Shown here: in pieces, positions 7,916 through 59,038 of the stretch
Layout of the letters: each line of letters starts with the position of its first letter
Position numbering within the stretch: the stretch's first letter is position 1
Translations under genes and position numbers: made by a program
DNA from: Marivivens donghaensis
GTDB taxonomy: Bacteria > Pseudomonadota > Alphaproteobacteria > Rhodobacterales > Rhodobacteraceae
Length of the DNA: 64,000 nt
Reading direction: 5' to 3'
Assembly (NCBI RefSeq): GCF_023541015.1
Contig: NZ_JALNPR010000004.1
Location: forward strand, 124,001-188,000
Notes under the pieces: model-generated
What the model was told of the DNA's origin: nothing
Database searches by the model: none
Seen by the model: only the letters and a program-made list of their open reading frames with translations

Positions 7916-10279
7916 ATGCCTAAAGATCATGGTATCGGCGCCAGCCCAAAGCGGCGCGAAGACGTAAGATTTCTGACCGGTAAAGGTCAGTACACAGACG
8001 ACATAAACCTGCATGGCCAAACATACGTGCATTTCCTGCGGTCCGATGTTGCACACGGCATCATCAAATCGATCGACACTTCTGACGCTGAAAACATGCC
8101 TGGCGTTGTTCGTATCTTCACAGGTGCGGATTTCGAAGGCGTCGGCGGTCTTCCGTGCGGATGGCAGGTCACTGACCGTCACGGCCAACCGATGCAGGAA
8201 CCGGGTCACCCCGTTCTGGCACGTGGTAAGGTCCGTCACGTGGGCGATCCGATTGCAGCGATTGTCGCTGAAACCAAGGAGCAAGCGCGCGACGCTGCCG
8301 AAGCAATCGGCCTCGACATCGAAGAGCTTCCTGCTGTTGTGGACATGGTGTCTGCGCTCGCTCCTGATGCGCCAAAAGTTCACGACGAACTGACATCGAA
8401 CCTCTGCTACGACTGGGGTTTTGTTGAAGAAAACAAAGCGGCAGTTGACGAAGCGTTTGAAAAAGCGGCGCACGTCACCACGCTTGAGCTGATCAACAAC
8501 CGTTTGGTCGCGAACCCGATGGAGCCGCGTGTTGCTGTTGGTGACTATAACCAAGCGAACGATGAATCGACGCTCTACACGACCTCGCAAAACCCGCACG
8601 TTATTCGTCTTTTGATGGGCGCGTTTGTTCTGGGTATCCCAGAGCACAAACTGCGTGTTGTTGCTCCTGACGTTGGCGGTGGCTTCGGCACAAAAATCTT
8701 CCATTATGCGGAAGAGGCTTTTGTTACCTTCGCATCGCGTCAAATCCGTCGTCCGGTGAAATGGACCTCGACCCGTTCCGAAGCATTCATGTCGGATGCT
8801 CATGGTCGCGACCACAAGACCAAGATCGAACTGGCGCTGGATGCTGACAACAACTTCATGGCGATCCGCACGGACACCTACGCAAACATGGGCGCATATC
8901 TGTCCACCTTTGCACCGTCGGTTCCGACATGGCTTCATGGCACACTGATGGCGGGTAACTACAAGACCCCGTTGATCTATGTGAACGTTAAGGCAGTCTT
9001 TACCAACACCGTTCCAGTCGACGCATACCGCGGCGCTGGTCGTCCTGAAGCTACGTTCCAGCTGGAGCGTCTGGTCGATAAGGCGGCTCGTGAACTCGGC
9101 GTTGATCCGATTGCTCTGCGTCGTCAGAACTTCATCACACAGTTCCCATATGCAACTCCAGTTGCTGTGGAATACGATACTGGCGACTACATCGCGACGA
9201 TGGACCGTATGGAAGAGATCATGGATATCTCTGGGTTTGAAGCTCGCCGCAAAGCGTCCGAAGCCAAAGGCAAATGGCGCGGTCTGGGCGTGAACTGCTA
9301 CATCGAGGCATGCGGTATCGCGCCGTCCAACCTCGTTGGTCAGTTGGGTGCGCGCGCAGGTCTCTATGACGCGGCAACAGTTCGTGTGAACGCAACGGGT
9401 TCGATTTCGGTCATGGTCGGTGCGCATAGCCACGGTCAGGGTCACGAAACCACCTTCCCGCAGGTTATCGCAGAGATGATCGGTATCGACGAAAGCCAAG
9501 TGGACATCGTTCACGGTGACTCGTCCAAGATCCCGTTCGGTATGGGCACCTATGGTTCCCGTTCGCTCGCTGTGTGTGGTTCTGCGATGGTGCGTGCTGC
9601 TGAAAAGGTCATTCGCAAGGCGAAAAAGATCGCGGCACACCTTCTGGAAGCATCCGAGGCAGACATCGAACTGAAGGACGGTAAATTCAGCGTGGCTGGT
9701 ACGGACAAAGAGTGCGCATGGGGTGACGTTACCCTCGCAGCCTATGTCCCGCACAACTACCCGCTGGAAGATATCGAACCAGGTCTCGAAGAAACCGCGT
9801 TCTACGATCCAGCCAACTTTACCTACCCATCGGGCGCTTATGCCTGTGAGGTCGAAGTTGATCCCGAAACCGGCAAAGTCACGATCGAGAAGTTCGCCGC
9901 GGCGGATGACTTCGGCAACGTGGTCAACCCGATGATCGTGGAAGGTCAGGTCCATGGCGGTATCGCTCAAGGTATCGGTCAGGCCCTTCTCGAAGCGGCG
10001 GTTTATGATGAAAACGGTCAGCTGCAATCGGCGTCCTATATGGACTACGCAATGCCGCGCGCAGATGACGTGCCGTTCTACATCGTAGACCATTCCTGCT
10101 GCACACCGTGCACTCACAACCCGCTGGGTGTGAAAGGCTGTGGTGAGGCTGGTGCCATCGGTTCCCCGCCTGCAGTTGTGAACGCCGTCATCGACGCTCT
10201 TGCCTCTGGTGGTAAGAACGTTCCGCACATCGACATGCCCCTGACGCCTCACCGCGTCTGGAAAGCAATCAACCAGTAA
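7916..10279 (+). CDS. coxL: Form II CODH-type molybdopterin large subunit
   Basis: 787 residues, full length for the xanthine-dehydrogenase-family large subunit. The molybdenum cofactor loop VGGGFGTK is at 253-260. The active-site loop reads AYRGAGR (370-376), the form II signature; genuine form I CO dehydrogenases have AYXCSFR with the Cu-binding cysteine. The gene order S-L-M is also that of form II loci. The likely substrate is therefore an aldehyde or small heterocycle rather than CO; next to PQQ alcohol-oxidation genes an aldehyde is attractive, but this is inference. Confidence 0.93.
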
Positions 10280-45835: not shown

Positions 45836-45912
45836 GGCCCCGTGGCTCAACTGGATAGAGCAGCCCCCTCCTAAGGGGCAGGTTACAGGTTCAAGTCCTG
45901 TCGGGGTCACCA
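45836..45912 (+). tRNA. tRNA-Arg (CCT)
   Basis: 77 bases with encoded CCA. Acceptor GGCCCCG pairs with CGGGGTC; anticodon loop CTCCTAA gives CCT; T arm ACAGG-TTCAAGT-CCTGT. The 3' part is duplicated at 58992-59038, so this is the integration target of the adjacent island, and the tRNA stays intact after integration. Confidence 0.98.
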
Positions 45913-45913
45913 A
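45867..45913. repeat. Left attachment repeat (attL) in tRNA-Arg
   Basis: 47 bases from the anticodon stem of tRNA-Arg through CCA plus one A, identical to 58992-59038. Confidence 0.95.
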
Positions 45914-46075
45914 TTTTATCATTATATATCAATAATTTATGTCTTTTTGACTTTCTGTATTTTGACCCAAAGTAGTCAAAATAGCCATAGTCAAAACATA
46001 TACAAAAATCAGTGTAAAATCGACCATCTTTTTGATATCATGTCACAAATTCAGTGTGTGATGTGAGGTGCAGAA

Positions 46076-47290
46076 ATGGCTATCGATCGGGACTATGAGG
46101 ACCTCAGGGGTGATGGTCGGATCGTCTTGTTTCTGCGGGAAGGCAAGAAGCCGAAGTATCACGTTCGACTCAAAGTCCCCAATGCTTCAGGCTACAAGTT
46201 TGTTTCGACCAAGACTTCAGATCGGAATGAAGCCGTCAGATTGGCGATGAACTTCTACGATGAGCTGTATCACCACATCAAAGTCGGTGGCTCGATCAAA
46301 TCCAACACCTTCGCTGATGTGTTTAAGGAGTGGAAAAACTCTCGCCGCAACGCTTATCAGAAGGTTGAGACCAAGGATCGGTCTGTCGAGTATGTTGCGA
46401 CTTATGCTCTCGATTACTTTGGCAAGATGAGAATCGATCAGCTCACAGCCAAGGATTTCCATGCCTATTGGGATTGGCGAAAGCTCAACTTCAAACGCAA
46501 GAAGCCGACTGACGACACGTTGAACCGTGAGCGGAATGCGATCCAAAGCTTGATGAAGTTCGCTTTACAGAGAGGTCACGTCACCAAGCCTTTCAAGATC
46601 CCCAAGATTGAGACGAAAGGTATCAATCGACGTCCTACCTTTACCCTTGCCGAATGGAAGAAGATCACGATTGGAATGAGAGCCTGGGTCGAGGAAGGTC
46701 GTTCCAACGGTCATTGGCGAGAGCGGTTCGTCCTTCAGCAGTATGTGCTGCTCTTAAGTAACAGCGGCATCCGAATCGGTGAGATGAGGACTGTCACTTG
46801 GGATGATGTCTCAACGATTGAGGTTGAGGCTGGGCGCCTCGTGATCATCAAGGTGAATGGCAAGACTGGCTTAAGAGAAGTTGTCTGCAATCCAGGATGT
46901 GAGGTCTTCCTCAGGCGTATGTATGACCTGCGCCGCTCTGATCTCGATGGCGGTGATCCACCCCTCAACGAGCCGGTATTCATCAATCACAACTCAGGAA
47001 AGCCGATTGGGTCGTTCAAGGTCGGGTTCAATTCGATGCTTAATTACTGCGAAGTGCCGATTACTAAAGACGGGATGAACAGGACGCCTTATTCCCTGCG
47101 CCACTTCTATGGGACGCAACGGCTTCGTGGAAACATCAATCCATATATCTTGGCAAAGAATATGGGCACGTCAGTCGAGATGATTGAAAAATTCTACGGG
47201 CACATTTTGACGCCGGACATAGTGTCTTCAATCAAGAAAACCACCAATCAAAATACGACCACCAAAGCCAATAACAAATATCCCTTTTAG
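46076..47290 (+). CDS. int: Tyrosine-recombinase integrase
   Basis: 404 residues. N-terminal arm-binding region, then a SAM-like core-binding domain (about 85-170) and a catalytic domain with Arg in NSGIRIGEMRTV, Lys in VNGKTGLREVV, YSLRHFYGT (Arg; Tyr instead of the first His, common in this subgroup) and the nucleophile Tyr in MIEKFYGHI. It lies 164 bases after the tRNA-Arg and is transcribed away from it, as expected for an island integrase acting on the 47-bp att repeat. Confidence 0.95.
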   Translation: MAIDRDYEDLRGDGRIVLFLREGKKPKYHVRLKVPNASGYKFVSTKTSDRNEAVRLAMNFYDELYHHIKVGGSIKSNTFADVFKEWKNSRRNAYQKVETKDRSVEYVATYALDYFGKMRIDQLTAKDFHAYWDWRKLNFKRKKPTDDTLNRERNAIQSLMKFALQRGHVTKPFKIPKIETKGINRRPTFTLAEWKKITIGMRAWVEEGRSNGHWRERFVLQQYVLLLSNSGIRIGEMRTVTWDDVSTIEVEAGRLVIIKVNGKTGLREVVCNPGCEVFLRRMYDLRRSDLDGGDPPLNEPVFINHNSGKPIGSFKVGFNSMLNYCEVPITKDGMNRTPYSLRHFYGTQRLRGNINPYILAKNMGTSVEMIEKFYGHILTPDIVSSIKKTTNQNTTTKANNKYPF

Positions 47291-47302
47291 GCGATTCAGT
47301 GT

Positions 47303-47428
47303 ATGACCTTTAATGCAAGTAAAGGTTTTACATGGCGATCTTATAGTCGAAACGACCATGAGGAAGCTTTAAGTGCTCTCTTCTTTGCGCCATACGGCAA
47401 CATGTATGAAGATTACCAAAAGCGATAG
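47303..47428 (+). CDS. Possible 41-residue protein
   Basis: ATG at 47303 to TAG at 47428, encoding MTFNASKGFTW and ending YEDYQKR. No recognised similarity and no strong ribosome site. It could be the remains of a longer gene. The rest of 47291-47571 carries nothing else obvious. Confidence 0.25.
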   Translation: MTFNASKGFTWRSYSRNDHEEALSALFFAPYGNMYEDYQKR

Positions 47429-47571
47429 GTGACTGAAAATCTTCAACCCTGTCGAGCACGCTCGGTCGCAAGTCGATCAGATCGAACGGTTCTACGCACG
47501 GATCTTACGTCTCTTGAGGGTGTTGGCGAAGAACCTACAAACCTGTGTATTATAGAGGGAATTTATACACT

Positions 47572-47997
47572 ATGCATCTGCAAAGAGCTATTGAAATTGC
47601 TGTCGAAGCCCATCGTGGAATGACTGATAAAGGGGGAAATCCCTATATCTTGCATCCATTGAGGGTAATGCTTTCTCTATGTAGTGAAGAAGAAAGGATT
47701 GTGGGCGTACTTCACGATGTAGTTGAAGATTGTGATGGCTGGAATATTGAAAGATTAAGAGCTGAGGGATTTTCAGAAAAAATTTTGAAAGCCCTGCAAT
47801 CTGTAACAAAATCAGATGAAGATCAAAATTACGAAGACTTTATAGAACGTGCCGCTCAAAATCAGTTAGGGAGACAAGTTAAGATAGCAGATATTCTGGA
47901 TAATCTTGATGTGACGAGGATAAAAAATATCACGATGGAGGATGTCAAAAGATTGAACAAATATAAAGACGCTTTGTCCATGCTTAGAAAATATTAA
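47572..47997 (+). CDS. Small HD-domain hydrolase (RelA/SpoT hydrolase-like, MESH1-like)
   Basis: 141 residues. Metal ligands fit an HD fold: His14 and His28 (AHRGMTDKGGNPYILHPLR), HD at 48-49 with ED at 52-53 (GVLHDVVEDCDGW), and a later Asp in KIADILDNLD. This is the stand-alone (p)ppGpp-hydrolase-like domain without synthetase, as in small alarmone hydrolases. ATG at 47572 is favoured over an ATG nine codons upstream. Its AT-rich codons mark it as island cargo. Confidence 0.75.
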   Translation: MHLQRAIEIAVEAHRGMTDKGGNPYILHPLRVMLSLCSEEERIVGVLHDVVEDCDGWNIERLRAEGFSEKILKALQSVTKSDEDQNYEDFIERAAQNQLGRQVKIADILDNLDVTRIKNITMEDVKRLNKYKDALSMLRKY

Positions 47998-48019
47998 GAA
48001 CTATGGGCGATATCGAAAA

Positions 48020-48343
48020 ATGTTAAAGCAAGAAGAAGCCTTTGAAGTCTTTTCTAATTCTTGGGAAATTGACGGAAGCGTTCACACGAGATCTGTCAGA
48101 ATTTACTACACGAAGGAATGGGATATTCAAATCGAGGAATATTTAACTGGTGATAATCTTGAACAAATTTACGGTGATTGGGATCATGAAGAATTTGTTA
48201 TAATTAAAAGAATTGATGCGCCTATGCTGATGATTTTACTTTTTAAACACGCATTCAATCAAAGTGAGCCCTTAAGTTTGTCAAGCTTGAAAGTGTTGTT
48301 CCGAGAAAATGGATTGAATTTTGATAATCAAATGTGGAGCTAA
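48020..48343 (+). CDS. Hypothetical protein
   Basis: 107 residues, acidic and aromatic (SWEIDGSVHTRSVRIYYTKEW; EIEEYL-type segments), no signal peptide or membrane segment. Not recognised. It follows the HD gene by 22 bases on the same strand and may be co-transcribed. Codon use is AT-rich like its neighbours. Confidence 0.55.
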   Translation: MLKQEEAFEVFSNSWEIDGSVHTRSVRIYYTKEWDIQIEEYLTGDNLEQIYGDWDHEEFVIIKRIDAPMLMILLFKHAFNQSEPLSLSSLKVLFRENGLNFDNQMWS

Positions 48344-48592
48344 AATTCATTTATTCGGTTTTTATAAAAAAATTTAAATATGCGATCATGGCTCCGCCGA
48401 AAAAATGGCGAATGGTTTACAAAGATTTGGTGATCAATTTATAATCACAACGTCATTTGTATATTTGACTCATTTCGGACCCGAAATGGATTGAGCTAAG
48501 TGTAAAACTTTTGTTTACAGGTGCTTAGCCTATGATATCTTATTTTTGAGGTCATTTACCTCAGATATTTATTAATAAAAATGGAGAATAAA

Positions 48593-49009
48593 ATGAAAGT
48601 CGATATAAACGGAAAGATAAAGGATTGCCTATCAACTCTAGATAAGGAATTTGGCGTCAATATCAATTGTACATACAAAAGGGAAAAAAATAAAAGAGTG
48701 ACCTATGGTACGCTTGAAACTATGTTAAAAGTGGAAAAAATAGAAGAAATATGCGAAAGGTTTTCGGGGATGCAAGTATTTCCAACTTGCCTTCCCTATA
48801 ATATTCATGAAATTATACTAACCTGTCCTGAGGGTGATATTATTCAGCGATTACAGTTTTTCCCTGAACCAAACGAGGAGAGGATCAAGTTTTCAGGATA
48901 CAAAGGCGAATGCGAACTTATAATTGCTATCCTTCAAGATCAAGTTGCCCCAGATATTTGCAGCACCCAAGAAGCACTTTATTATGATCTTCTTTGTGAA
49001 AATATATAA
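48593..49009 (+). CDS. Hypothetical protein
   Basis: 138 residues, predicted soluble, not recognised (KVDINGKIKDCLSTLDKEFG; ILTCPEGDIIQRLQFFPEP). The ATG at 48593 is chosen because GGAG stands six bases before it; an ATG four codons upstream has no ribosome site. The 240 bases before it are AT-rich without a gene. Confidence 0.6.
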   Translation: MKVDINGKIKDCLSTLDKEFGVNINCTYKREKNKRVTYGTLETMLKVEKIEEICERFSGMQVFPTCLPYNIHEIILTCPEGDIIQRLQFFPEPNEERIKFSGYKGECELIIAILQDQVAPDICSTQEALYYDLLCENI

Positions 49010-49030
49010 AATATCTTCACCCGTATAGAT

Positions 49031-49512
49031 TATCTCATATAAATAAACATGTCCAACCGGACAATAACATATTGGATGTCAAACCTCGTGGGGAAACCCT
49101 GATGAGTAACGGCGGTACTTGATTGGAACGTCGGTGCAGATTGAGTTAGGACCCGCCAAGATTTATCTTGGTTTCAAGGCAGCAAAGGCGAATGGGCTGA
49201 ATAAAAATTATCGTCACGATGAAGGCTCTGCCACACTGCAACCTTCGATGACCGATCAAAGTCGTTCCGTTGGCTGATCGGTTATGCCGCTGGTTTGAAG
49301 CGGAGCATAAAAGGAGACCGGCTAACCGCCCTTACCCATAGCATGATGGGTTGCTCTAACGGAATGTGGACAGAGGCGAAGACACAAGCCCTTGGACATA
49401 CCTCACCTCTCGGAAGGTGAAGTGTGTTCAAAACAAATCCACAATAATAAATTAAAATAAAATATCTAAAGTCAATGACCCGAAGGGTCATTGATCCCGA
49501 AGGGATAGATTA
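49031..49512 (+). ncRNA. Candidate structured RNA region, unidentified
   Basis: About 480 bases with no credible ORF, GC-richer than the flanking genes and dense in hairpins: GTCC/GGAC (49051), CCAAGA-TTTA-TCTTGG (49155), ACCGATCA/TGATCGGT (49251-49282), CCGCT/AGCGG (49287), ACCCAT/ATGGGT (49334), TCACCT/AGGTGA (49402-49420), AATGACCC-GAA-GGGTCATT (49474-49492), ATCCC-GAA-GGGAT. Purine-rich single-stranded links (GATGAGTAACGGCGGTAC, GAGGCGAAGACACAAGCCC) look like ribozyme or intron joining segments. I could not find a group II domain V or group I P7/S element, so the class is open. Confidence 0.5.
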
Positions 49513-49558
49513 AAGAAAACATAAATATTTACATGATTTATTAATCAAGGAGATCAAT

Positions 49559-49762
49559 ATGAAACAAGAAATATTTCTTATGAACTTTAGGATCCCATCA
49601 GGGCTCAAGATGCAATTTGAAGAAACTTGTTATCAGCTTAGGACCAATATGACGGCTGAAATGAATAGGATGATACGAGACTTCGTTAAGAACTCACGAG
49701 AAGACCTATATGAGCCGGTAAACTGGTTTTATAGTGCAAAGGATTTTTATGATGATGAATGA
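49559..49762 (+). CDS. Ribbon-helix-helix (Arc-like) small DNA-binding protein
   Basis: 67 residues: an N-terminal strand (MNFRIPSGLKMQFEETCYQL) followed by RTNMTAEMNRMIRDFV, the beta-alpha-alpha of Arc/MetJ repressors. AAGGAG stands seven bases before the ATG. It heads a run of three overlapping small genes; probably a repressor of that run or of the element. Confidence 0.7.
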   Translation: MKQEIFLMNFRIPSGLKMQFEETCYQLRTNMTAEMNRMIRDFVKNSREDLYEPVNWFYSAKDFYDDE

Positions 49763-49940
49763 TCAAGCCACCATCAAGACCAAACATGAGCTCATTAGAA
49801 GCCTTTACAAACAACGAGTAACCCAGATCGAAGTTATTGAGCCTTATGACCAATCAAGGGCTGACGATGTTACAAAGATGGCGAAGGCTATGTCTTATCG
49901 ATCAGGTCGGGTGACAGTAATCCTGTTGAGGACGACATGA
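49749..49940 (+). CDS. Small hypothetical protein
   Basis: 63 residues, not recognised (SLYKQRVTQIEVIEPYDQ). Three tandem ATG codons lie at 49749-49757; AAGGA upstream supports the first. It overlaps the ribbon-helix-helix gene by 14 bases and the next gene by four (ATGA), so the three are translated as a unit. Confidence 0.55.
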   Translation: MMMNDQATIKTKHELIRSLYKQRVTQIEVIEPYDQSRADDVTKMAKAMSYRSGRVTVILLRTT

Positions 49941-50236
49941 AGGGCTTCAAGGCATTTCTTGCAGAGCAACAGGCTCTGGAAGAAGGAGTCGTCAAGAAGG
50001 GGGCTGTTGCGGCTTATGCCTTGCAAGGTAGGAACCATGGCAACAATGCTGTTCGATCTTATAATAAAGCCAAGCAAACCTTGAGGACTGCCACCAATGC
50101 AAAGAGCTCCGACGCCAAGGTCGATGCTCTTACTCGGGCGTTTATTGATCTGCTTGACGGTTTAGTTTCCCAAAGGTATCAGGTCGGCTCTGTTTCAGCA
50201 CAAATTACTACAGCTATTGCTTTATCGAAGAATTAG
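49937..50236 (+). CDS. Phage-like small hypothetical protein
   Basis: 99 residues: MKGFKAFLAEQQALEEGVVK followed by a helical region (YNKAKQTLRTATNAKSSDAK) and a C-terminal FIDLLDGLVSQRYQVGSV. The style (short, MKxFKxFL start) recalls small proteins of tailed phages, but I cannot name a family. Overlaps the 3' end of the convergent HEPN-like gene by 23 bases. Confidence 0.55.
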   Translation: MKGFKAFLAEQQALEEGVVKKGAVAAYALQGRNHGNNAVRSYNKAKQTLRTATNAKSSDAKVDALTRAFIDLLDGLVSQRYQVGSVSAQITTAIALSKN

Positions 50237-50771
50237 TCTTGATATGTAATTCTCTTAATACTTTTGTCGTAAGATTTGTTGTTATGCGTGCCAGTTCTGC
50301 TCCAGTGATGGCGGTATTCTTTAGATGCTCTAATCTGTGATCCAGATCTTCGTTTAGGTTTTTACGTGTGATTGTCACAAAACCATGGGCTGCAATGTTT
50401 CTCTCAGGTACCCATTCATTCAATTTTTTTCTGAGGCTTTTGAATTCGTCACCTAGATCAATACTTCTGCTTTTCATTTCAACTTGTAAAAGTTCAAGCG
50501 CAAGTCCGATACTAGTATGCACGTAATGCTCGGGTTCTTCCCTTCGTAGAAACTGAACCAACGCCTGAATACGATCTGTTATTAGACTATCAGCAATGGC
50601 GATGACTTCAAAAAAGCTCTCACTTTTAATACCATCTTCAATTCGATCAAATGCCACCTTGTAAAGTTTGAAACGTAATGAATTTTGCGGACTTCCTGCC
50701 TCACCTCGTGCACGGACTTTCGGGCTTTCTATGCCTTTAAGAAGGTCTTGGTATTTATCTTTGTCAGTCAT
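50214..50771 (-). CDS. HEPN-like protein, candidate RNase
   Basis: 185 residues, all-helical by composition. ERNIAAHGF contains RNxxxH (Arg124, His129), the catalytic motif of HEPN ribonucleases; an upstream helix with RIQALVQFLRR and a C-terminal helical region fit the four-helix bundle. HEPN proteins commonly serve as toxins or effectors in defence systems. It is the 3'-most gene of the leftward glycosyltransferase run, 33 bases after it. A non-catalytic helical protein with a chance motif remains possible. Confidence 0.6.
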   Translation of the reverse strand: MTDKDKYQDLLKGIESPKVRARGEAGSPQNSLRFKLYKVAFDRIEDGIKSESFFEVIAIADSLITDRIQALVQFLRREEPEHYVHTSIGLALELLQVEMKSRSIDLGDEFKSLRKKLNEWVPERNIAAHGFVTITRKNLNEDLDHRLEHLKNTAITGAELARITTNLTTKVLRELHIKTNSSIKQ

Positions 50772-50804
50772 TTTTTCTTATCCCATTTCTGATCCGAAAT
50801 ATCC

Positions 50805-52160
50805 TCACTTGATTTTCTCTCGGCGCATTTTGAACTGATCGGTTTCATATTTATTTTTTGATGCGTTATAGTCTTTTACGTATATTGGTGTGTTATCTCG
50901 GAAAGGTCGGTAGTCTACTTCATGATGCCACCGCCCATATTTCCAGACGGTTCTTGCTACATCAGGATGAGCCATCTCAAGCATCTTGGACTTATTGTAA
51001 GTCCCCTCTGAAGAATAGAACTCTGCTGTGTTACCACCACCTAGCTTCTGGGTAGGCGATTTTCCTTGAAGCAGATTGTAAAATTGCATTGTGCAGTAAC
51101 CATCCTTCAGAACATCCAAACTTAAAATGGTGTCTTCGTTATAACGTCCTCTCCATCGATGCGGGCAGGAATTCTCAATTAGTAAAGACGAATAAATCCG
51201 GGTGTTGAGGATGAATGGTGGAAACGCTCCCTTTTCAGGTGCGAAAAAGTCGTACACCAGTCCAGAGATAGGAACGTTTTCAAAGCGATCAACAAACTCT
51301 TCAATAACTCGGAACATCCCTCCATCAGCGATAGGTAGCCGACGATGTCGGTGCAGTCGACTAAACTCAACTATATTGTCGTCGAATACCCAATGCCTTT
51401 TGAAGCCATGTTCTACAGAATGATCCCAGCACCAGTTTCTTGCTCGACCTGGACCATCACCATGGTTAGAAAATGGTAGAACAAGGATTTTCTTTTCGTC
51501 TATGACACAAGCATACTCATCATAATCCTGTGGTTCGATAGCGATGAAGTATGGGATACTGGTTCTCTCAAAAAAACGAGCAGTAAGGCGACTGTCACCT
51601 CGACCCTTTGAAATGATATACATTGGATACTTTGGGTTCTTGTTGCCCCATTCTGAAACCCAGTGGTATTTGTAAACCTTTGGCTTTGTCGGCGGATAGG
51701 TCATAAATGCCTGACCGACACTCAATCTTTGCTTAACCCGTCGACAAAATTCTAGGAAGTCATGTTCGGTGTTAAATGTGACTTTGAAAGATATGTAATG
51801 GATCCAACCATCTTGCATAAACTCAAGTGTGTTGGTCCAGAGCTTTGATTCGATACGATTCTTATGAGTTGCTCGCTTTTTAAAGGGATCAGACCGTCTC
51901 TCTGTGTAAATCCCTGACCTTGAGGTGTTTGGTGTTGCAACAAAGGTGAATGCTCTGACATCACTGCACAGGTCCATCCCAATTGCCTCAGCAAACTTCT
52001 CAGTGCCGCCAAGGGTCCAAGTGTTGACCTTCATGGTGAAAGGGTAGTCGGGAAGCTTTGTGCTTGGCTTATCGGGTTTTGAGCCATCTACCGTTGATGG
52101 CATTAGTCCAGCCAAAGATTGGTAGGTATGAGACTCCTGAACTTCTGGCTTCTTAACCAT
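50805..52160 (-). CDS. TET-associated glycosyltransferase-like protein (TAGT), putative DNA-base glycosyltransferase
   Basis: 451 residues. Residues about 178-425 match the TAGT/GREB1-type GT-A fold: MYIISKGRGDSRLTARFFER, ILVLPFSNHGDGPGRARNW, the metal-binding DDN at 260-262 (WVFDDNIVEF), NTRIYSSLLI, RYNEDTILSL (339-348) and GGGNT (374-378), ending YGRWHHEVDYRPF. Phage members glycosylate modified cytosines in DNA. The N-terminal 170 residues are unrecognised. The usual TET/JBP oxygenase partner is absent. The gene sits three bases from a related glycosyltransferase gene. Confidence 0.78.
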   Translation of the reverse strand: MVKKPEVQESHTYQSLAGLMPSTVDGSKPDKPSTKLPDYPFTMKVNTWTLGGTEKFAEAIGMDLCSDVRAFTFVATPNTSRSGIYTERRSDPFKKRATHKNRIESKLWTNTLEFMQDGWIHYISFKVTFNTEHDFLEFCRRVKQRLSVGQAFMTYPPTKPKVYKYHWVSEWGNKNPKYPMYIISKGRGDSRLTARFFERTSIPYFIAIEPQDYDEYACVIDEKKILVLPFSNHGDGPGRARNWCWDHSVEHGFKRHWVFDDNIVEFSRLHRHRRLPIADGGMFRVIEEFVDRFENVPISGLVYDFFAPEKGAFPPFILNTRIYSSLLIENSCPHRWRGRYNEDTILSLDVLKDGYCTMQFYNLLQGKSPTQKLGGGNTAEFYSSEGTYNKSKMLEMAHPDVARTVWKYGRWHHEVDYRPFRDNTPIYVKDYNASKNKYETDQFKMRREKIK

Positions 52161-52162
52161 AG

Positions 52163-53890
52163 TTAAACGTACCGTCCCGATGTATCCTTGCGACCTTTCA
52201 CGGCGTTTCGAGTGACATCGTAGTATTCCTTACGCTTGAAGTACATTTTCGTAAGGTCATCCATTTTACTCTCAAACCGGAACTGAGCACTATTGCCTTC
52301 GCCAAAGTGCGCTGAAACCAATTGAAGGAACTGTTCAACTTGCTCCAAGTCTAGGCAGCCAATCTTGTCACCCGTCTTGCGATCAAAGTCGAGTAGTTCA
52401 CCGGAACAGTAAATTGTCAGTAGAGGTAACGTCCTCTTATCAGTGCGTTTTGCCTTCGGAGGAGGAGGGTTTTCCCATTTTTGGCGCCAAGTCCGCACTG
52501 TCTGTTCGGTCACTCTTGGACCGATCAGTGCTGGTTTCTTTGTTTTCCAGTCGAACTTTGGTTCATCGATTGTTTTCCTCGATGCCGTAAATTGCAGGCA
52601 GAGTTTGAATGTTTCTTCACTTGCTTTCAAGATCATCGATATTTCGTAGAGAGCGCCCACCGATACAGGCAATTGGTTGAGATACTTTTCGGGGTCACTC
52701 GTTTCGGATGCAACATAACTGATCACATCCCCAGCTGATGCATATTTGGTGAAATTTGCGATTGAGCCAAACAGCTTCTTCATTCCTGCCTTGTCGTACC
52801 ACTTTAGGAATTCGTCGGTATATTTCTGCGCATTTTCATCAAGATATTTGCGCCTAATGCCGCTGCTGAGAACATAAAGCCTAAAGCGATTTCGGCGGTC
52901 GGTATGGAAATGACTTTTGAGTTCAGCTTCCAGCTTTGATGAGATGGTGACCTGATTGTCACCCGGAATTGAAAAGTCCGAAAGGTTGAACGTCATCTTT
53001 GAAACCTCCACTGGGTTGGACTGTACGGTTTTTTTGACAGACCCAAATTTATTGGTCGCAGCTTTTAATGGTACTTGTGATTGCTTGAACGCTTTCGACC
53101 AATACGTTCTAACCTTGCCATAGTTTCGGAAGCCACCCGGTACCCTGTTACCTTCGGCATCCAGAAGTACTTTGAAAAAATCGGGGAGAAGTTCTTGAAT
53201 TCGTTGATGGTCTCGCCAAACTTCATCATGGGTCGCACTGTCCCATAAGCTCTGCTGCAAATCCTTGCCGAGGCTTTTGTTTTCGAAACAGAATTCTTGA
53301 CTGACCCGATTACCAAAACCTCGTGTAAGCAAGCTAAGAAAGAACAGAGTATCTTCGCCGTACTTTACTTCAGTAAGTGGTAAATCGTCGAGAACATCTG
53401 AAAAATCAGATCCGTTTACCCATATAGCACTACTCAGAGATGCGTTGTTTCGGTATGCTTGGGTTGCGGGAATATTTTGGACTTGGCTTGCTCCGCAAAG
53501 GGTTACGTTTTTTTCATCAAGCCACTGCGAAAATAGCTCAAACATCTCTGTGAGGTCGTCGTCTGTTGCTTGTCGAGACGATGTTGCCATATTGCTATTG
53601 CCGGTGAAGCGCTTTGAATTTCGTCGCTTGAATACTATGTCGTCGTCAAGAACAGCATATTTTTCATTTCGTGCTGTTCGGTAGATATGTGCTCGTGTTT
53701 TTGCCAGACAAAGACGATCGCCAAGATTGATTTCAGACGGTAGGACCAAATAGTCGCAATCATAATTGTAGTTATTTTGTTCCCATTCTTGAACTACAAG
53801 AGTCACCCGTTTTTGAAGGTGCGGCGGTAGATGCTCGTAAGTAATTTGCTGTTTCGGGCGGTTAACTGTGGGGATGAATATCCGTTCCAT
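52163..53890 (-). CDS. Second phage-type GT-A glycosyltransferase-like protein with extra C-terminal region
   Basis: 575 residues. Residues 1-270 look like a diverged paralogue of the neighbour: IFIPTVNRPKQQITYEHLP, YLVLPSEINLGDRLCLAKTR, LDDD at 81-84 (YAVLDDDIVF), KYGEDTLFFLSLLTRGFGN (176-194) and RNYGKVRTYWSKAFKQ. The same layout occurs in phage proteins predicted to decorate DNA bases. Residues about 300-575 are unrecognised, mixed alpha-beta, with a basic stretch near 475-490 that could bind nucleic acid. First gene of the leftward unit; promoter expected in 53891-54133. Confidence 0.68.
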   Translation of the reverse strand: MERIFIPTVNRPKQQITYEHLPPHLQKRVTLVVQEWEQNNYNYDCDYLVLPSEINLGDRLCLAKTRAHIYRTARNEKYAVLDDDIVFKRRNSKRFTGNSNMATSSRQATDDDLTEMFELFSQWLDEKNVTLCGASQVQNIPATQAYRNNASLSSAIWVNGSDFSDVLDDLPLTEVKYGEDTLFFLSLLTRGFGNRVSQEFCFENKSLGKDLQQSLWDSATHDEVWRDHQRIQELLPDFFKVLLDAEGNRVPGGFRNYGKVRTYWSKAFKQSQVPLKAATNKFGSVKKTVQSNPVEVSKMTFNLSDFSIPGDNQVTISSKLEAELKSHFHTDRRNRFRLYVLSSGIRRKYLDENAQKYTDEFLKWYDKAGMKKLFGSIANFTKYASAGDVISYVASETSDPEKYLNQLPVSVGALYEISMILKASEETFKLCLQFTASRKTIDEPKFDWKTKKPALIGPRVTEQTVRTWRQKWENPPPPKAKRTDKRTLPLLTIYCSGELLDFDRKTGDKIGCLDLEQVEQFLQLVSAHFGEGNSAQFRFESKMDDLTKMYFKRKEYYDVTRNAVKGRKDTSGRYV

Positions 53891-54133
53891 TCTTTACGAC
53901 CCTCTTGGCTTGTAAGTTACTTTGCCTCGGCGCTCGATGTTCTGACAACCCTGTCATTTACCGTGGTAAAGTTCGCTCAGAGGTCTCCAGACACTGATGC
54001 ACTAAGATCCATTTGATAACCAGTTGGCTTAAGCCGTTGCTCTGCCACAAAACTTTTTAAGCACTTCTCCGTGTTCGATTTAGACTGATTTTATTATTAT
54101 GAATCAGTGACATAACATCATCAGAGGTGCGTG

Positions 54134-54733
54134 ATGGCTTTAGGAAAACAAGCAAAAACTCTTACCAAGGGTCAGGTAGACTCTTTAACAGCTTTTCTTC
54201 TGACACGACGGCACGGGCTTCGGGATCAAACGGTTTTTCTGCTTTCGGTTCGTGCAGGGCTGAGGGCAAAGGAGATCGCCAACCTCAGGTGGGCGATGGT
54301 TCTTGGGGCTGACGGGGAGGTGGGAGACTCGATCCATCTGACGGACGAGGCATCGAAGGGGAAATCAGGTCGGATTGTACCTTTGAACAAGCAACTTCGT
54401 GGAAACCTCATCCAAATGTTGGATGTCGCCAGACAACAAAGGCATTTCGGATCCGAAACGGCTTATGTGGTGACAACCGAGCGATCGAAGCACACGTCAC
54501 CGCAGGCTGTCGTGAATATGTTTAAGCGCTGGTATAATGATATTGGGCTACTGGGTTGCTCATCACATTCCGGTCGCCGTACATTCATCACAAATTCTGC
54601 TCGAAAAATCAGCACAGTAGGTGGATCATTGCGGGATGTTCAGATGCTGGCTGGGCACTCGTCTTTGGCTGTTACACAGCGGTATATTGAAGGTGATAGC
54701 GATGCGAGGCGGAAGATCGTGGACTTAATATGA
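54134..54733 (+). CDS. Compact tyrosine recombinase (catalytic domain only)
   Basis: 199 residues. Arg in LSVRAGLRAKEIANLRW, Lys in ASKGKSGRIVPL, HSGRRTFIT (His-x-x-Arg), AGHSSLAVTQRYIEGD (His and Tyr nucleophile). No N-terminal core-binding domain, as in phage or plasmid resolvase-like XerC/D minimal enzymes. It stands between the divergent glycosyltransferase unit and the HNH/methyltransferase unit, so it may have brought in one of them. AGAGG precedes the ATG. Confidence 0.88.
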   Translation: MALGKQAKTLTKGQVDSLTAFLLTRRHGLRDQTVFLLSVRAGLRAKEIANLRWAMVLGADGEVGDSIHLTDEASKGKSGRIVPLNKQLRGNLIQMLDVARQQRHFGSETAYVVTTERSKHTSPQAVVNMFKRWYNDIGLLGCSSHSGRRTFITNSARKISTVGGSLRDVQMLAGHSSLAVTQRYIEGDSDARRKIVDLI

Positions 54734-54848
54734 TATATAGGTTTGGTCGACTGGCGACTTGATGTCGGCCAATCAATTAAAAATTGTATTAATAACGAAT
54801 TGAGTAGCCGGTCTTGTATATTAATTCCTTTGATGCAACAATATTTAG

Positions 54849-56234
54849 ATGGCGTCAGAGGAACCAAAATTACAGAAACGTGCAGGTAAAGCTGCGTATT
54901 CTGGGCGGCGTCGTCCGTCGACGAGAATGTCTGGTTTTAAGAGCCATTCAGAAGCTACTGGGGGAAGTCTTCGAAGGCTGCCATCAAAGGTTTATCGAGC
55001 TTCACCACAATCTCCTCTGAACATAGATTTCATTCTCCCTGAGATTGCATCTGGTCACTTTTCGGGCTTTGGATTTTATTATCGATCCGATGTAACCGTT
55101 TCTCTGCAAAGCAACAGGGAGTGGTTCAGTTCACGCTTCCACACTAATTACGAAGATCCATTATCCGTTAATAAATGTGGGTTCATATGGCAGGCAGAAG
55201 AACCTAATGACTTCCGCATAACGCTTACGCCAAGTAGGGCTACGGATATTGAAATATTTAATGCTGAGTGTGGTGAGGTTTGGCACGATTTTTTCGAAGG
55301 AGCTCGAGACAACGTATTAAAGAACATTCATACCTTTGCTCCCGAAGCTAATTTCTACACAAGGTTTGGTGAAGTGGTAATTGGCGCCACTGCACATGAA
55401 AAACCTTTCTCAGTAGTCGTGAAAGAATGTAATCGCTGCGCTCGATTCCTCCCAATCAACTTACCTGCCGAACGACATACATTATCGTTCTCAAATCACT
55501 GTGTTGCGAAGCGGCCTTGTCGCCACAAGGGCTTTGGAATTGTTAATGATTTAGACAAGGGGGTATTTGTGGAGCTTGAATATGGCTTCCAACTTGAGTG
55601 CCGATTTTGTAAGAAATTTGTAGTAAATGCCGCCTTAAATCCTCAACGTTCTGCTGATCAAATGAAAGAGGATAGCCAGAGACGCCGCTACTTTGAGCTC
55701 ATGATTGCGGAAATGTCTGGGGTGTCAGAGCAGTTAGCATTTCGGCACAAGACTGGAGTCGAACTTGCATCATTCATTTGGGAGAAATTCGGGAAGAAAT
55801 GTTTCAAATGTGGTGACCGTTTGAGAACAGCAAGAGAGATGCACCTAGATCACACACGGCCACTGGCATTGCTTTGGCCACTCGATGAAACGGCGACAGC
55901 ACTTTGCGGTAGTTGCAATTCTACCAAACGAGATCGTCAACCTAAAGATTTTTATAGTCAAACAGAGCTTGTTGAGCTGAGTAAATTCACTGGGATTCCA
56001 CTTCCAGAGCTGCTCAAGCCGTTACCCAACATCAACGTGCTGAAGGCACTAATTGAACGTTGTGATTGGCTCGTCGATGACTTCTTAAACCAAGATTTCC
56101 TCAAGAAGGAAAAAGATGGAAAAACTTCTGCTGAACTCATTTGCAAGTCGCTTGATAGGGTACTCAAGATTTCTGAGTTGGACTTTGGTGATTTTAGTTT
56201 CTCTAAGAAATGGAACGATCATTTCTTGGCGTAA
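54849..56234 (+). CDS. HNH endonuclease, probable restriction enzyme
   Basis: 461 residues. The C-terminal HNH core is CxxC at 318-321 (CFKCG), MHLDHTRPLALL (HLDH 332-335) and CGSCNSTKRDRQP (353-365), a zinc-braced beta-beta-alpha-metal site. Upstream are further Cys pairs (194/197, 218/224, 251/254) that suggest a structural zinc, possibly target recognition. It is convergent with two DNA methyltransferase genes, overlapping the first by 16 bases, consistent with a type II-like restriction-modification system. Specificity unknown. Confidence 0.78.
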   Translation: MASEEPKLQKRAGKAAYSGRRRPSTRMSGFKSHSEATGGSLRRLPSKVYRASPQSPLNIDFILPEIASGHFSGFGFYYRSDVTVSLQSNREWFSSRFHTNYEDPLSVNKCGFIWQAEEPNDFRITLTPSRATDIEIFNAECGEVWHDFFEGARDNVLKNIHTFAPEANFYTRFGEVVIGATAHEKPFSVVVKECNRCARFLPINLPAERHTLSFSNHCVAKRPCRHKGFGIVNDLDKGVFVELEYGFQLECRFCKKFVVNAALNPQRSADQMKEDSQRRRYFELMIAEMSGVSEQLAFRHKTGVELASFIWEKFGKKCFKCGDRLRTAREMHLDHTRPLALLWPLDETATALCGSCNSTKRDRQPKDFYSQTELVELSKFTGIPLPELLKPLPNINVLKALIERCDWLVDDFLNQDFLKKEKDGKTSAELICKSLDRVLKISELDFGDFSFSKKWNDHFLA

Positions 56235-57352
56235 ACCAGGTATTGATGCTCCACCGTACCACCTTTGTCCTTGATCCCATGCTTTTCGGAAGATCCCACA
56301 CACTCTGAGAATACATCAACCATTTCAAAATCATTAAATTTCAATAGTTGTAGCTTTTCTGACATGTCTACCGCCTTGTTCTTACCGACATGCAAAACAA
56401 CGGGACCACCGCTTTTTAAGACACGCCCAAAACTTTTAAAGATGTCCTCGTAAACGATCAATGATTTGTCCTTATTCCCCTCAATGAATTGAGCGCTTGC
56501 ATTGTCAAAGTCTGTTAGTGACCAGCCACAAAACCAAAAACGCATCCAATTGGTCATGTAGAACCGTGTCGATGAAGCAAACGGTGGAGAAGTAATGATG
56601 ACATCGATAGAGCCATCGGCCAATTGAGACAGATCTCGAACGTCAGATTGGATAGATATGCTTTGCGGCGTCAGTGGTAAGCTCTCTTTTGCCGCAAGAG
56701 CAGAGTGCACTTTTGTTCTTAAGTGTGTTGAAACATTCTTGTAAACATAGTCTCCTGTTGGAGCGTAAGGGGTCAAGGGATGACTATTGCGGGATAAGGC
56801 GTATGGCCTATTCCCATGCAAGATATGAAGCATAGCTGAAAATACCAAACACCAATTGGGATCACCGAGATCTTTGGTTTTTGCAAAAAAGTCACGGGCC
56901 TTCAAAACCTCTTGAAAGGTGTTCGGTTCAAAATACTCTGCAATTGTCTTATTGAAACGAATATTTGCAGTATCTTCAATTGTCTTTGGCTCAACTGATC
57001 GAGTTGACACCCACACAATTAGAGCATCAATCAATGAGTCACACGCCATTCTATTTGTATTGCCGATTTTCGCATTTGACATGGCTACTGCCATGTCGCT
57101 CAAGTCATTGGAAACTGCACATCTGCCAGATATGGCTGCCTCTAAAGGCACAGTGCCTGATCCTGAAAATGGATCAAAGACGGTCTGCCCTCGCTTAGAG
57201 AATACCTGTACCAATTGATGGGCCAAGGCAGGTTTTAGTTTACCCTGATACGAGCACAGTGAATGAAGGGGTGTCCCCCAGTTTCGCTTAGAGAAAGCTC
57301 CCTTTTTATGCGGTAGCTCTTTCTTAAATTGGCTCCAAAGCTTTTGATCCAT
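56219..57352 (-). CDS. DNA methyltransferase, TSPPF type
   Basis: 377 residues. Motif I DPFSGSGT at 60-67, catalytic motif IV TSPPF at 254-258 after a long spacer, and FGRVLKSGGPVVLHVG (motifs VI-VIII). The I-then-IV order with TSPP suggests an amino-methyltransferase (N4-cytosine likely, N6-adenine possible) with the recognition domain between. It lies one base after the second methyltransferase gene; the pair would protect the host from the HNH enzyme. Confidence 0.88.
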   Translation of the reverse strand: MDQKLWSQFKKELPHKKGAFSKRNWGTPLHSLCSYQGKLKPALAHQLVQVFSKRGQTVFDPFSGSGTVPLEAAISGRCAVSNDLSDMAVAMSNAKIGNTNRMACDSLIDALIVWVSTRSVEPKTIEDTANIRFNKTIAEYFEPNTFQEVLKARDFFAKTKDLGDPNWCLVFSAMLHILHGNRPYALSRNSHPLTPYAPTGDYVYKNVSTHLRTKVHSALAAKESLPLTPQSISIQSDVRDLSQLADGSIDVIITSPPFASSTRFYMTNWMRFWFCGWSLTDFDNASAQFIEGNKDKSLIVYEDIFKSFGRVLKSGGPVVLHVGKNKAVDMSEKLQLLKFNDFEMVDVFSECVGSSEKHGIKDKGGTVEHQYLVYAKK

Positions 57353-57353
57353 C

Positions 57354-58667
57354 CTACTTCCTGAATATCAGCAGTCGCTGGCTTAGCGCTGCGCCACGAT
57401 TAGAGTGACGCTTCCTTAATATAACTTCATCTTCAAGCGTCAGCCCCACATTCCCAAAAACAGCGCTGAGAATTTCGTGTGTAGGGACATGGATCCCGCC
57501 ATACACGCTGTCCCCAATGTCGATGCACACAGGTGCCCCATCTTGAACTTGTGCAAAAATGCCTTCAGCGACGAGCTTCATATGCTCAAAGTAGCCTGCA
57601 ATCATCCTGGGGATGCGGGCATCATAGCAACTGTTAGAGACAGCATCGACAATCTCTTTAGCTTCGTCGACGATGAGCAAGCCAGATGTCTTGGAAACAT
57701 CGTTGATCGCCGAAGTTACAACTGCTTTCCGAAATTCGCCTAGGTCAGACTTTTTTGATAAGTAGCCTAAGTACCACAGTTCTAGTTTCATGTTACGGAT
57801 ATAGTTCGTTCCATTTAGATAGGGTGGGCTGGTAATCACACCGTCATATTTGGCAGCGTTACCCAAGACTAGATTCTTAGCGTTGCTTCCTAAGAGCTTA
57901 ATCTCAGGAGCTTTCAGTTGGGCTACTGAGTTAAGGTCATTTTCAAATAAGGAAAGTTTATCAATTACAAGATCCGATATACTCCGAATTGGTTTTTGAA
58001 GCTCTTTCTCGGTTTTAAACCGAACGTCACCTGCCCTACGAAGTAAGGATGCTTCAAGCAGGCTACATGCGACAGCCATGCGAAAGAATGAATTTAAGAG
58101 GGTGTCTGATACTATACTGCTTTCTATCGATTTAAGTGATAATACTTCGTCGAATGCGTCGCTTCGAAAATATTGTGCAGTCCCAAAGACAGCTAAATAA
58201 CTTACTCTTAGCGCTTCATGAGTCCGCTCTCTTTCCCCCACCGAAACCCGCATTTTTAGATTTCTTAGACCTTTGATTGCTTCATCACGTTGGGCTGGTG
58301 ACATCTTTAGGCAAGCAGCTTTCAAAGTGACTAATTCAACTAGAAAAGGATTAACCTCAGTATATCCGCACGAAATACCGAGCTGAGCCAATGCAATAGG
58401 GGTCGTCCCGACGCCACAAAATGGTTCGAGAAGTGATTTTGGATTATTAAACTTGGCTTCAAGGATCTGTTTAACAAATTGCGAAGAATAGCCTTCAAGA
58501 TACGGGAACCAGTCATGGAAAGGCTCGCCCCGTCCTCCTGAATGGGTAACATCTTTAGCCTGCACCTGTTTTAACCGGAAGCTGATTTCGTTGCGGTTCT
58601 GTGGGTCAATTTCACTCGACAAAGTCATCTCCTCTTTTGGCATTCTGCCAGGTGTCTTTGCTTCCAT
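57354..58667 (-). CDS. DNA methyltransferase, TSPPY type
   Basis: 437 residues. Motif I EPFCGVGTT at 81-89, motif IV TSPPY at 279-283 (DGVITSPPYLNGTNYIRN), same domain order as its neighbour but clearly diverged. Two amino-methyltransferases in one locus usually mean an asymmetric recognition site, each modifying one strand. First gene of the leftward pair. Confidence 0.88.
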   Translation of the reverse strand: MEAKTPGRMPKEEMTLSSEIDPQNRNEISFRLKQVQAKDVTHSGGRGEPFHDWFPYLEGYSSQFVKQILEAKFNNPKSLLEPFCGVGTTPIALAQLGISCGYTEVNPFLVELVTLKAACLKMSPAQRDEAIKGLRNLKMRVSVGERERTHEALRVSYLAVFGTAQYFRSDAFDEVLSLKSIESSIVSDTLLNSFFRMAVACSLLEASLLRRAGDVRFKTEKELQKPIRSISDLVIDKLSLFENDLNSVAQLKAPEIKLLGSNAKNLVLGNAAKYDGVITSPPYLNGTNYIRNMKLELWYLGYLSKKSDLGEFRKAVVTSAINDVSKTSGLLIVDEAKEIVDAVSNSCYDARIPRMIAGYFEHMKLVAEGIFAQVQDGAPVCIDIGDSVYGGIHVPTHEILSAVFGNVGLTLEDEVILRKRHSNRGAALSQRLLIFRK

Positions 58668-58991
58668 AGGCAGTCTAACATGGCGAACTTTTCAGCTATT
58701 AGAGGGGTTTTGACTAACCTTCCAGAATTCAAACCAAACATTGAGGCAAAATCATAGATGTCACATCTACATGTATTACTTTTTGGTTTATTTTATGGCT
58801 AAACTAGTAGGTAAGTACACAGCAACCTGTGCGTTGATGGGGGTCACTTGGATGCAGTAACGATACTTTCAGAATAGCTAACAATGACTGCAGACGATCA
58901 GTATCCAGATGACTTTCTATACAATACATATACATATTCCAAGACCAATTATAAAATATTGATATTAAAGAAAATTATCTGAAGGCTTTTT
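58668..58991. other. Gene-poor right end of the island
   Basis: About 320 bases, AT-rich, without a credible ORF. It presumably holds the promoter of the methyltransferase pair (minus strand) and recombinase-binding sequences next to attR. No clear repeats recognised. Confidence 0.5.
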
Positions 58992-59038
58992 CCTCCTAAG
59001 GGGCAGGTTACAGGTTCAAGTCCTGTCGGGGTCACCAA
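58992..59038. repeat. Right attachment repeat (attR)
   Basis: 47 bases identical to 45867-45913, a truncated 3' copy of tRNA-Arg(CCT) starting in the anticodon arm. It marks the end of the island and is not a functional tRNA. Confidence 0.95.

Follow-up and report, generated by a model that had tools for sequence, protein, structure and literature searches.

Why would a bacterial chromosome carry a pair of phage-type DNA glycosyltransferases with no recognised enzyme to make the base on which they would act? The question is raised by a 64,000-nucleotide stretch of Marivivens donghaensis (contig NZ_JALNPR010000004.1, positions 124,001 to 188,000; hereafter the window, within which all coordinates are given), where two adjacent genes, A and B, encode members of the TET-associated glycosyltransferase (TAGT) family. 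We find that the two genes are a bacterial version of a cassette known from phages and that they lie on an integrative element with relatives in two other genomes, one on contig L084 and one in genome G690. We propose, with a probability of roughly 40%, that this element is a satellite of, or otherwise geared to, a T4-like phage, and that its cassette would glycosylate DNA on an acceptor obtained from that phage. An initial annotation had noticed TAGT-type enzymes and no TET/JBP oxygenase, both of which hold; it was incomplete in that the lack of an oxygenase is not confined to this island and in that the genes are part of a mobile element with copies in three genomes.

Membership of A and B in the TAGT family is well supported. 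Both exceed the Pfam cut-off of 27.5 bits for PF20691 (A, 35.0 bits, E 1.8e-8; B, 115.9 bits, E 3e-33) and both match phrog_842 (2.7e-17 and 1.4e-44), which bears out the TAGT assignment for A as well as for B; they are the two TAGT matches in the 2.84-Mb genome. The motifs first read in the pair (LVLPFSN, DDN and YNEDT in B; LVLPSEI, LDDD and YGEDT in A) are present in the translated open reading frames (ORFs), and mutation of the presumed metal sites in homologues, which would have spoken against the assignment, is not what the relatives aligned show: DDN in B is invariant across 12 of them and the three islands and is conserved together with RGRYNEDT, and DDD in A is nearly invariant. The two ORFs exist as described, except that two bases and not three separate the stop codon of A from the ATG of B. 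They had also been taken for diverged paralogues, a kinship that rests on the common family models because a direct hhalign comparison of the A and B family profiles is weak (E 0.1, probability 0.6%). The TAGTs of phages, or beta-glucosyl-HMC-alpha-glucosyltransferases (HMC, hydroxymethylcytosine), share these motifs and the family whose cut-off both genes pass, and differ in that A is here fused to a further domain, C, and in that the genes lie on a chromosomal element.

An AlphaFold2 model of A is confident over about residues 1-274, mostly above a predicted local distance difference test (pLDDT) score of 88, and poor beyond (mean pLDDT 66), where domain C is modelled with low confidence. 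A Foldseek search of the PDB with this model gave 77 matches with E no higher than 0.001, and among the 50 listed are the GT-A glycosyltransferases LH3, GnT-I and ppGalNAc-T2 (E about 1e-5) and also sugar nucleotidyltransferases, which are related to GT-A enzymes. The model suggests a GT-A fold for residues 1-274 of A, and for this part of the pair only. The C-terminal half of A had been called unrecognised, and no Pfam family matches it at E up to 1, but it is a separable protein of the element, encoded in L084 by a gene of its own that is 45% identical to the C-terminal half of A. Domain C was not found in isolated phages at E 0.01, nor in any other of the 136 genomes of G690's order or of 378 of the phylum. 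The N-terminal part of B resembles the m domain of phage cassettes, for which no Pfam family scores over its cut-off. Searches of PDB sequences with alignments of B and of domain C gave chance-level matches only.

The kinship with phage cassettes is likewise well supported. Among isolated phages, 24 records have TAGTs that B matches, 22 of them from Aeromonas, Vibrio, Tenacibaculum and Pectobacterium phages at 42-50% identity and two of Nonlabens phage P12024L at 25%; A-type proteins have no match among isolated phages at E 1e-5, and neither A nor B has one among plasmids. Viral contigs encode relatives of B in 278 stretches and of A in 140, of which we kept 80 each. The set analysed comprises 156 viral loci, some overlapping or near-identical. 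A is present in 87 of these loci, B in 141 and both in 72; where both occur they are never more than three ORFs apart (72/72) and are mostly adjacent (60/72), and the small m domain is joined to B, or stands no more than two ORFs from it, in 119 of the 141 loci with B. This m-A-B cassette of uncultured phages has the same three domains as the pair studied here, and in some loci (L101, L139 and L148) the same order, A then mB. In 72 loci chosen for non-redundancy, the neighbourhood of the cassette, out to 8 kb, includes gp46-like ORFs (25 loci), gp47-like ORFs (23) and clamp-loader-like ORF groups (16), labelled by eye and not by family search; in the annotated Vibrio phage henriette, gp46- and gp44-like genes come just before B, and in T4 the alpha-glucosyltransferase (alpha-GT) sits in the gp44-47 cluster. 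Given these neighbours, the viruses that carry the cassette look like T4-like phages.

Further glycosyltransferase-like genes accompany some cassettes. Two A genes stand in tandem in several viral loci (L126 7995-9696; L130, L134-L137, L145), Vibrio phage Kuja has two TAGT genes side by side (L164 11641-14329), and a 280-aa protein with weak glycosyltransferase matches lies near the cassette in 19 of 72 phage loci (L012 2253-3095 and relatives).

What would such enzymes modify? A search of the genome for Tet_JBP returned nothing at E up to 10, and the absence is not peculiar to the island, because a Tet_JBP match over the cut-off is equally absent from 22 large viral records that carry such genes (31-171 kb, possibly incomplete), one match there being weak; the association that gave TAGTs their name, and that is not required of them, was found in neither. 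The same 22 records gave no match to the thymidylate-synthase family or to C5-methylases; as controls, the first search picks up T4 gene 42 and has matches in five of six named phage records, and the second in one of the six. On the element itself, scans with Pfam, PHROG, NCBIfam and PADLOC recognised no acceptor-making gene. An acceptor supplied by an infecting phage would explain the missing oxygenase. Alternatively, A and B might constantly modify the DNA of the host or of the element, on a base from an enzyme not recognised here; DNA methyltransferases adjoin the region of the pair, L084 encodes a C5-methylase, and 2-oxoglutarate (2OG) oxygenases occur beside B in ten viral loci, but the genome has no TET/JBP match and the G690 island no recognised methyltransferase, and we regard such standing self-modification as quite improbable.

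The oxygenases of those ten viral loci, some of them near-identical, are 2OG-Fe(II) oxygenase-like ORFs of PF13640. One directly follows B in each of the four loci looked at singly (L134, 2714-3997; L135, 3464-4747; L145; and L151). Some loci have them in tandem, and in L134 the first overlaps the end of B by four bases. They are candidate acceptor-making hydroxylases other than TET/JBP.

The histories of the two genes differ. The mB proteins of the three islands form one clade inside phage B with support 100/100 (tree of 56 rows), which shows one origin. For A, a single island clade is rejected (approximately unbiased test, p-AU 0.0012, 48 rows) and a clade of the window and G690 is not (p 0.40, 48 rows); the A of L084 is 64-65% identical to those of viral loci L103 and L104, against 55% to that of the window. 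As the island A genes are not monophyletic and that of L084 is nearer to viral A, A must have been acquired repeatedly in this lineage, a sign that the gene is of use. That A and B are passengers without present function would suit their rarity, with one other contig found by the A search of a genome collection and two of 385 genomes of the class by family, but their frames are open and their motifs intact in three diverged islands, mB is a single lineage and A was gained again; we therefore hold this explanation to be the least probable of those considered.

The pair belongs to a mobile element whose defined borders and gene set common to three genomes are well supported (Table 1). A 47-bp perfect direct repeat of the tRNA-Arg end (45867-45913 and 58992-59038) bounds it, and its G+C content is lower, at 38-47%, than the 53-59% of most of the window. 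No phage structural gene was named by scans that each covered up to 10 ORFs, the small ORFs being covered in part, so that within the ORFs scanned the element has the make-up of a satellite: an integrated island with an integrase and no structural genes. L084, labelled a Flavobacteriia metagenome-assembled genome in a bin that may be wrong, was the only other locus to emerge when the genome collection was scanned for short patterns from the A alignment, a scan that was non-exhaustive. G690 was found by the TAGT family search and not by that scan; among the 385 genomes of the class, that family search found TAGTs only in G690 and the window genome (2/385). The islands have in common the integrase, small genes, the HEPN-like gene, B, A, domain C and a 200-aa recombinase. 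L084 is identical to the window at 26% in the integrase, 41% in s1, 38% in s2, 37% in the HEPN-like protein, 57% in mB, 55% in A and 65% in the recombinase; the figures for G690 are 54% for the A-C fusion, 55% for mB, 59% for the recombinase, 36% for the HEPN-like protein and 41% for the integrase, and three of its small ORFs align weakly with s1-s3 (19-27%; s1 19%, s2 25%). The G690 island lies at the same tRNA-Arg(CCT), where the repeat found is only 11 bp.

Table 1. Features of the element, as positions in the window
Feature	Position	Strand	Description
Integrative element, 13.1 kb, at tRNA-Arg(CCT)	45867-59038		Bounded by 47-bp perfect direct repeat; low G+C
Tyrosine integrase	46076-47290	+	Pfam integrase models below cut-off (Phage_integrase 0.0016)
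HD-type phosphohydrolase	47545-47997	+	HD_4 2.9e-8; phrog_990 1.8e-45; not found in the other two islands
TATAAATA, T4-late-promoter-like	49038-49045	+	Upstream of RF01712 RNA; possible promoter
Methylobacterium-1 RNA (RF01712) core	49184-49294	+	49.4 bits, gathering score 40
CATAAATA	49520-49527	+	39 bp upstream of s1; possible promoter
s1, small gene	49559-49762	+	Ribbon-helix-helix-like by eye; no Pfam match
s2, small gene	49734-49940	+	Homologue in L084, weak counterpart in G690
s3, small gene	49937-50236	+	N-terminus resembling T4 internal head proteins IPII, IPIII
HEPN-like protein	50214-50771	-	Probable RNase; RNxxxH invariant in 3/3 islands
B (mB)	50805-52160	-	451 aa; m domain plus TAGT glycosyltransferase
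A	52163-53890	-	575 aa; residues 1 to ~280 TAGT-type glycosyltransferase, residues ~300-570 domain C
200-aa tyrosine recombinase	54131-54733	+	Phage_integrase 2.8e-21
HNH/endonuclease-VII-like protein	54849-56234	+	Variable cargo; phrog_1035 2.9e-7; Pfam HNH matches below cut-off
Amino-type DNA methyltransferase, first	56219-57352	-	Variable cargo; N6_N4_Mtase 3.1e-11
Amino-type DNA methyltransferase, second	57354-58667	-	Variable cargo

The other genes of the element bear on what the pair might be for. The HEPN-like protein is probably an RNase, judging by its RNxxxH, which conforms to the Rx4-6H motif, and by weak, below-cut-off matches to HEPN_RiboL-PSP (0.019), Csm6 (0.0013) and CARF-HEPN (0.00097); its alignment gave chance-level matches only against PDB sequences. 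Its gene follows B in the window, recurs in all three islands and is not adjacent to B in L084 or G690. The substrate of A and B might then be protein or RNA, for instance the HEPN-like protein itself, activated or inactivated by glycosylation in the manner of a toxin-antitoxin pair; LH3 and ppGalNAc-T2, which rank among the best matches of the A model in the PDB, are protein glycosyltransferases, and no base-modifying partner was found. We nonetheless think this improbable, given that the phage cassettes come without a HEPN relative, that the gene is separated from B in two islands and that known TAGTs, in the published accounts available to us, act on DNA.

The cargo differs among the islands: L084 has a C5-methylase together with a 345-aa protein, G690 a NERD protein, and the window the HNH-like protein and two methyltransferases (PADLOC MTase_II 4.5e-21 and 1.5e-53), which from their family matches are likely a restriction-modification set (54849-58667), within the element's borders and not in the other two islands. 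With this cargo and the HEPN-like gene, present in 3/3 islands, a pure defence island stays a close rival: A and B would spoil incoming phage DNA or mark self, the HEPN-like and restriction-modification-like genes would kill or restrict, and transfer would be independent of phages. Restriction-modification-like or NERD cargo across the three islands fits it, but PADLOC names no system for A or B, the two resemble enzymes that protect phage DNA, and late-promoter-like sites are present, so that on balance we consider it rather unlikely. The 200-aa recombinase is not specific evidence here because this kind is common on plasmids (427 records).

Those late-promoter-like sites bring in a second line of evidence for a link with T4-like phages. 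The T4 late promoter is TATAAATA and Aeh1 has CTAAATA, according to the accessible part of PMC1524935. When the octamers that lie upstream of 463 ORFs of 72 phage loci are ranked by strand bias, TATAAATA comes first (39 regions sense, 8 antisense). On the islands, an intergenic block common to the window and L084 (49075-49330; 70% nucleotide identity over about 260 bp) holds Methylobacterium-1 RNA, RF01712, which L084 encodes at 8259-8374 (47 bits) and which is tabulated in the part available to us of the paper describing it (PMC2864571). T[AC]TAAATA occurs no more than 250 bp upstream of RF01712 in six of seven elements, against 0.12 expected; with the pattern then fixed, it occurs upstream in 18 of 26 further loci, against 2.2 expected, with none antisense and none downstream (27 new loci came from G690's order, and the RNA was located in 26). 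An integrase-like ORF stands in the short flank of 15 of the 27, in 14 by similarity to an ORF of L174, itself named integrase-like by eye, and the octamer is present in all 14 of these loci where the RNA was located. Upstream of s1, at 39-46 bp, lies CATAAATA in the window and TATAAATA in L084, and over the whole elements NATAAATA occurs five times in the window, against 2.0 expected, and five times in L084, against 0.9. Single octamer sites prove little.

RF01712 was also tried as a marker of TAGT islands and rejected, as none of five other loci has A, B or HEPN within the stretch read. It occurs in these five other genomes of the 385 in the class (6/385 in all) and in 27 of 136 in G690's order. 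An integrase-like ORF lies near the RNA in four of the five loci, recognised in two by similarity to that of the window and in two by eye. More widely, RF01712 lies in or near integrative elements of many alphaproteobacterial genomes (window, L084, L166-L170, L184-L210), often with a same-strand TATAAATA upstream.

Glycosyltransferases, late-promoter-like sites and the repeated gain of A together point to T4-like infection. We hypothesize that on infection the element's TATAAATA sites would serve the phage's late transcription apparatus as promoters and the element would excise and replicate, with A and B adding sugars to a modified base supplied by the infecting phage; element DNA sugared in this way would resemble phage DNA and so might escape nucleases or suit packaging. 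The 200-aa recombinase would serve to resolve multimers, and action against competitors would fall to the HEPN-like RNase and the cargo. A wider proposal, which we hold still more tentatively, is that there is a family of T4-like-phage satellites with helper-matched glycosylating enzymes, switched on via late promoters, and that RF01712 is a late-transcribed RNA both of these and of related integrative elements. As to possible induction by a helper phage, late-promoter-like octamers were observed.

Several observations weigh against the satellite reading. The acceptor is not recognised even in phages that carry such genes; the element has no recognised gene for replication or packaging, and its restriction-modification-like cargo is equally in keeping with defence. 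Compared with the element, the m-A-B loci of uncultured phages have no integrative element and no relative of C, of the HEPN-like protein or of the 200-aa recombinase: relatives of domain C and HEPN are in none of the viral loci fetched, and short-pattern scans of viral contigs turned up neither C nor the recombinase, so that no packaged copy of the element was seen. As for the octamers, the C variant was added to the pattern after sequences had been seen, eight of the 26 further RF01712 loci lack the octamer, and independent events are far fewer than 18 because most octamer-bearing loci are close relatives. The G690 island has no RF01712 and no TATAAATA before its s1, and its count of NATAAATA, two against 3.5 expected, is not striking; the five other RF01712 loci of the class are without A, B or HEPN in the stretch read.

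Satellites of virulent phages offer a further comparison. VEIMEs and tycheposons are marine islands with tyrosine recombinases, for which transport in virus particles is established or suspected. Both are named in PMC10803314, which, in the part available, describes PICMI, a small marine chromosomal island with an integrase, few genes and no recognised capsid gene, much like the element here. PICMI adjoins fis, has a core of int, alpA and primase, and is packaged as concatemers in a virulent phage (PMC10803314, same part), whereas the element here lies at tRNA-Arg and has neither alpA nor primase named in the ORFs scanned. Our literature search found no phage satellite with DNA modification and a glucosyltransferase, and the published work on TET-associated glycosyltransferases that it returned concerns phages, as far as those sources were accessible. 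The TAGTs of T2 and T6 add a second glucose to glucosylated hydroxymethyl-C, and 288 of 753 phage genomes have a TAGT but neither alpha- nor beta-GT, according to the available portion of PMC13216743. Should our proposal be right, the island would be an instance of phage enzymes for DNA hypermodification put to use by a bacterial mobile element. It would also provide a system in which to test TAGTs that lack known partner enzymes, and would place the orphan RNA family RF01712 in a biological context.

Two smaller genes deserve mention. The third small gene, s3, aligns with counterparts in L084, G690 and L173 at 23-32%. It was considered as a T4-type head-targeted protein and set aside, as s3 and its G690 counterpart fit the motif in one script window and that of L084 does not; phage searches with s3 gave chance matches only. 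A slightly looser head-protein motif fits 7 of 2,980 ORFs in a scan of the phage loci, and two of the seven belong to T4 itself. As a lead only, proteins of this kind might be targeted to heads (window 49937-50236; L178 15134-15397; L173 2081-2515). The HD-type phosphohydrolase of the element is 57% identical to an ORF on L172, an RF01712 locus of genome G524.

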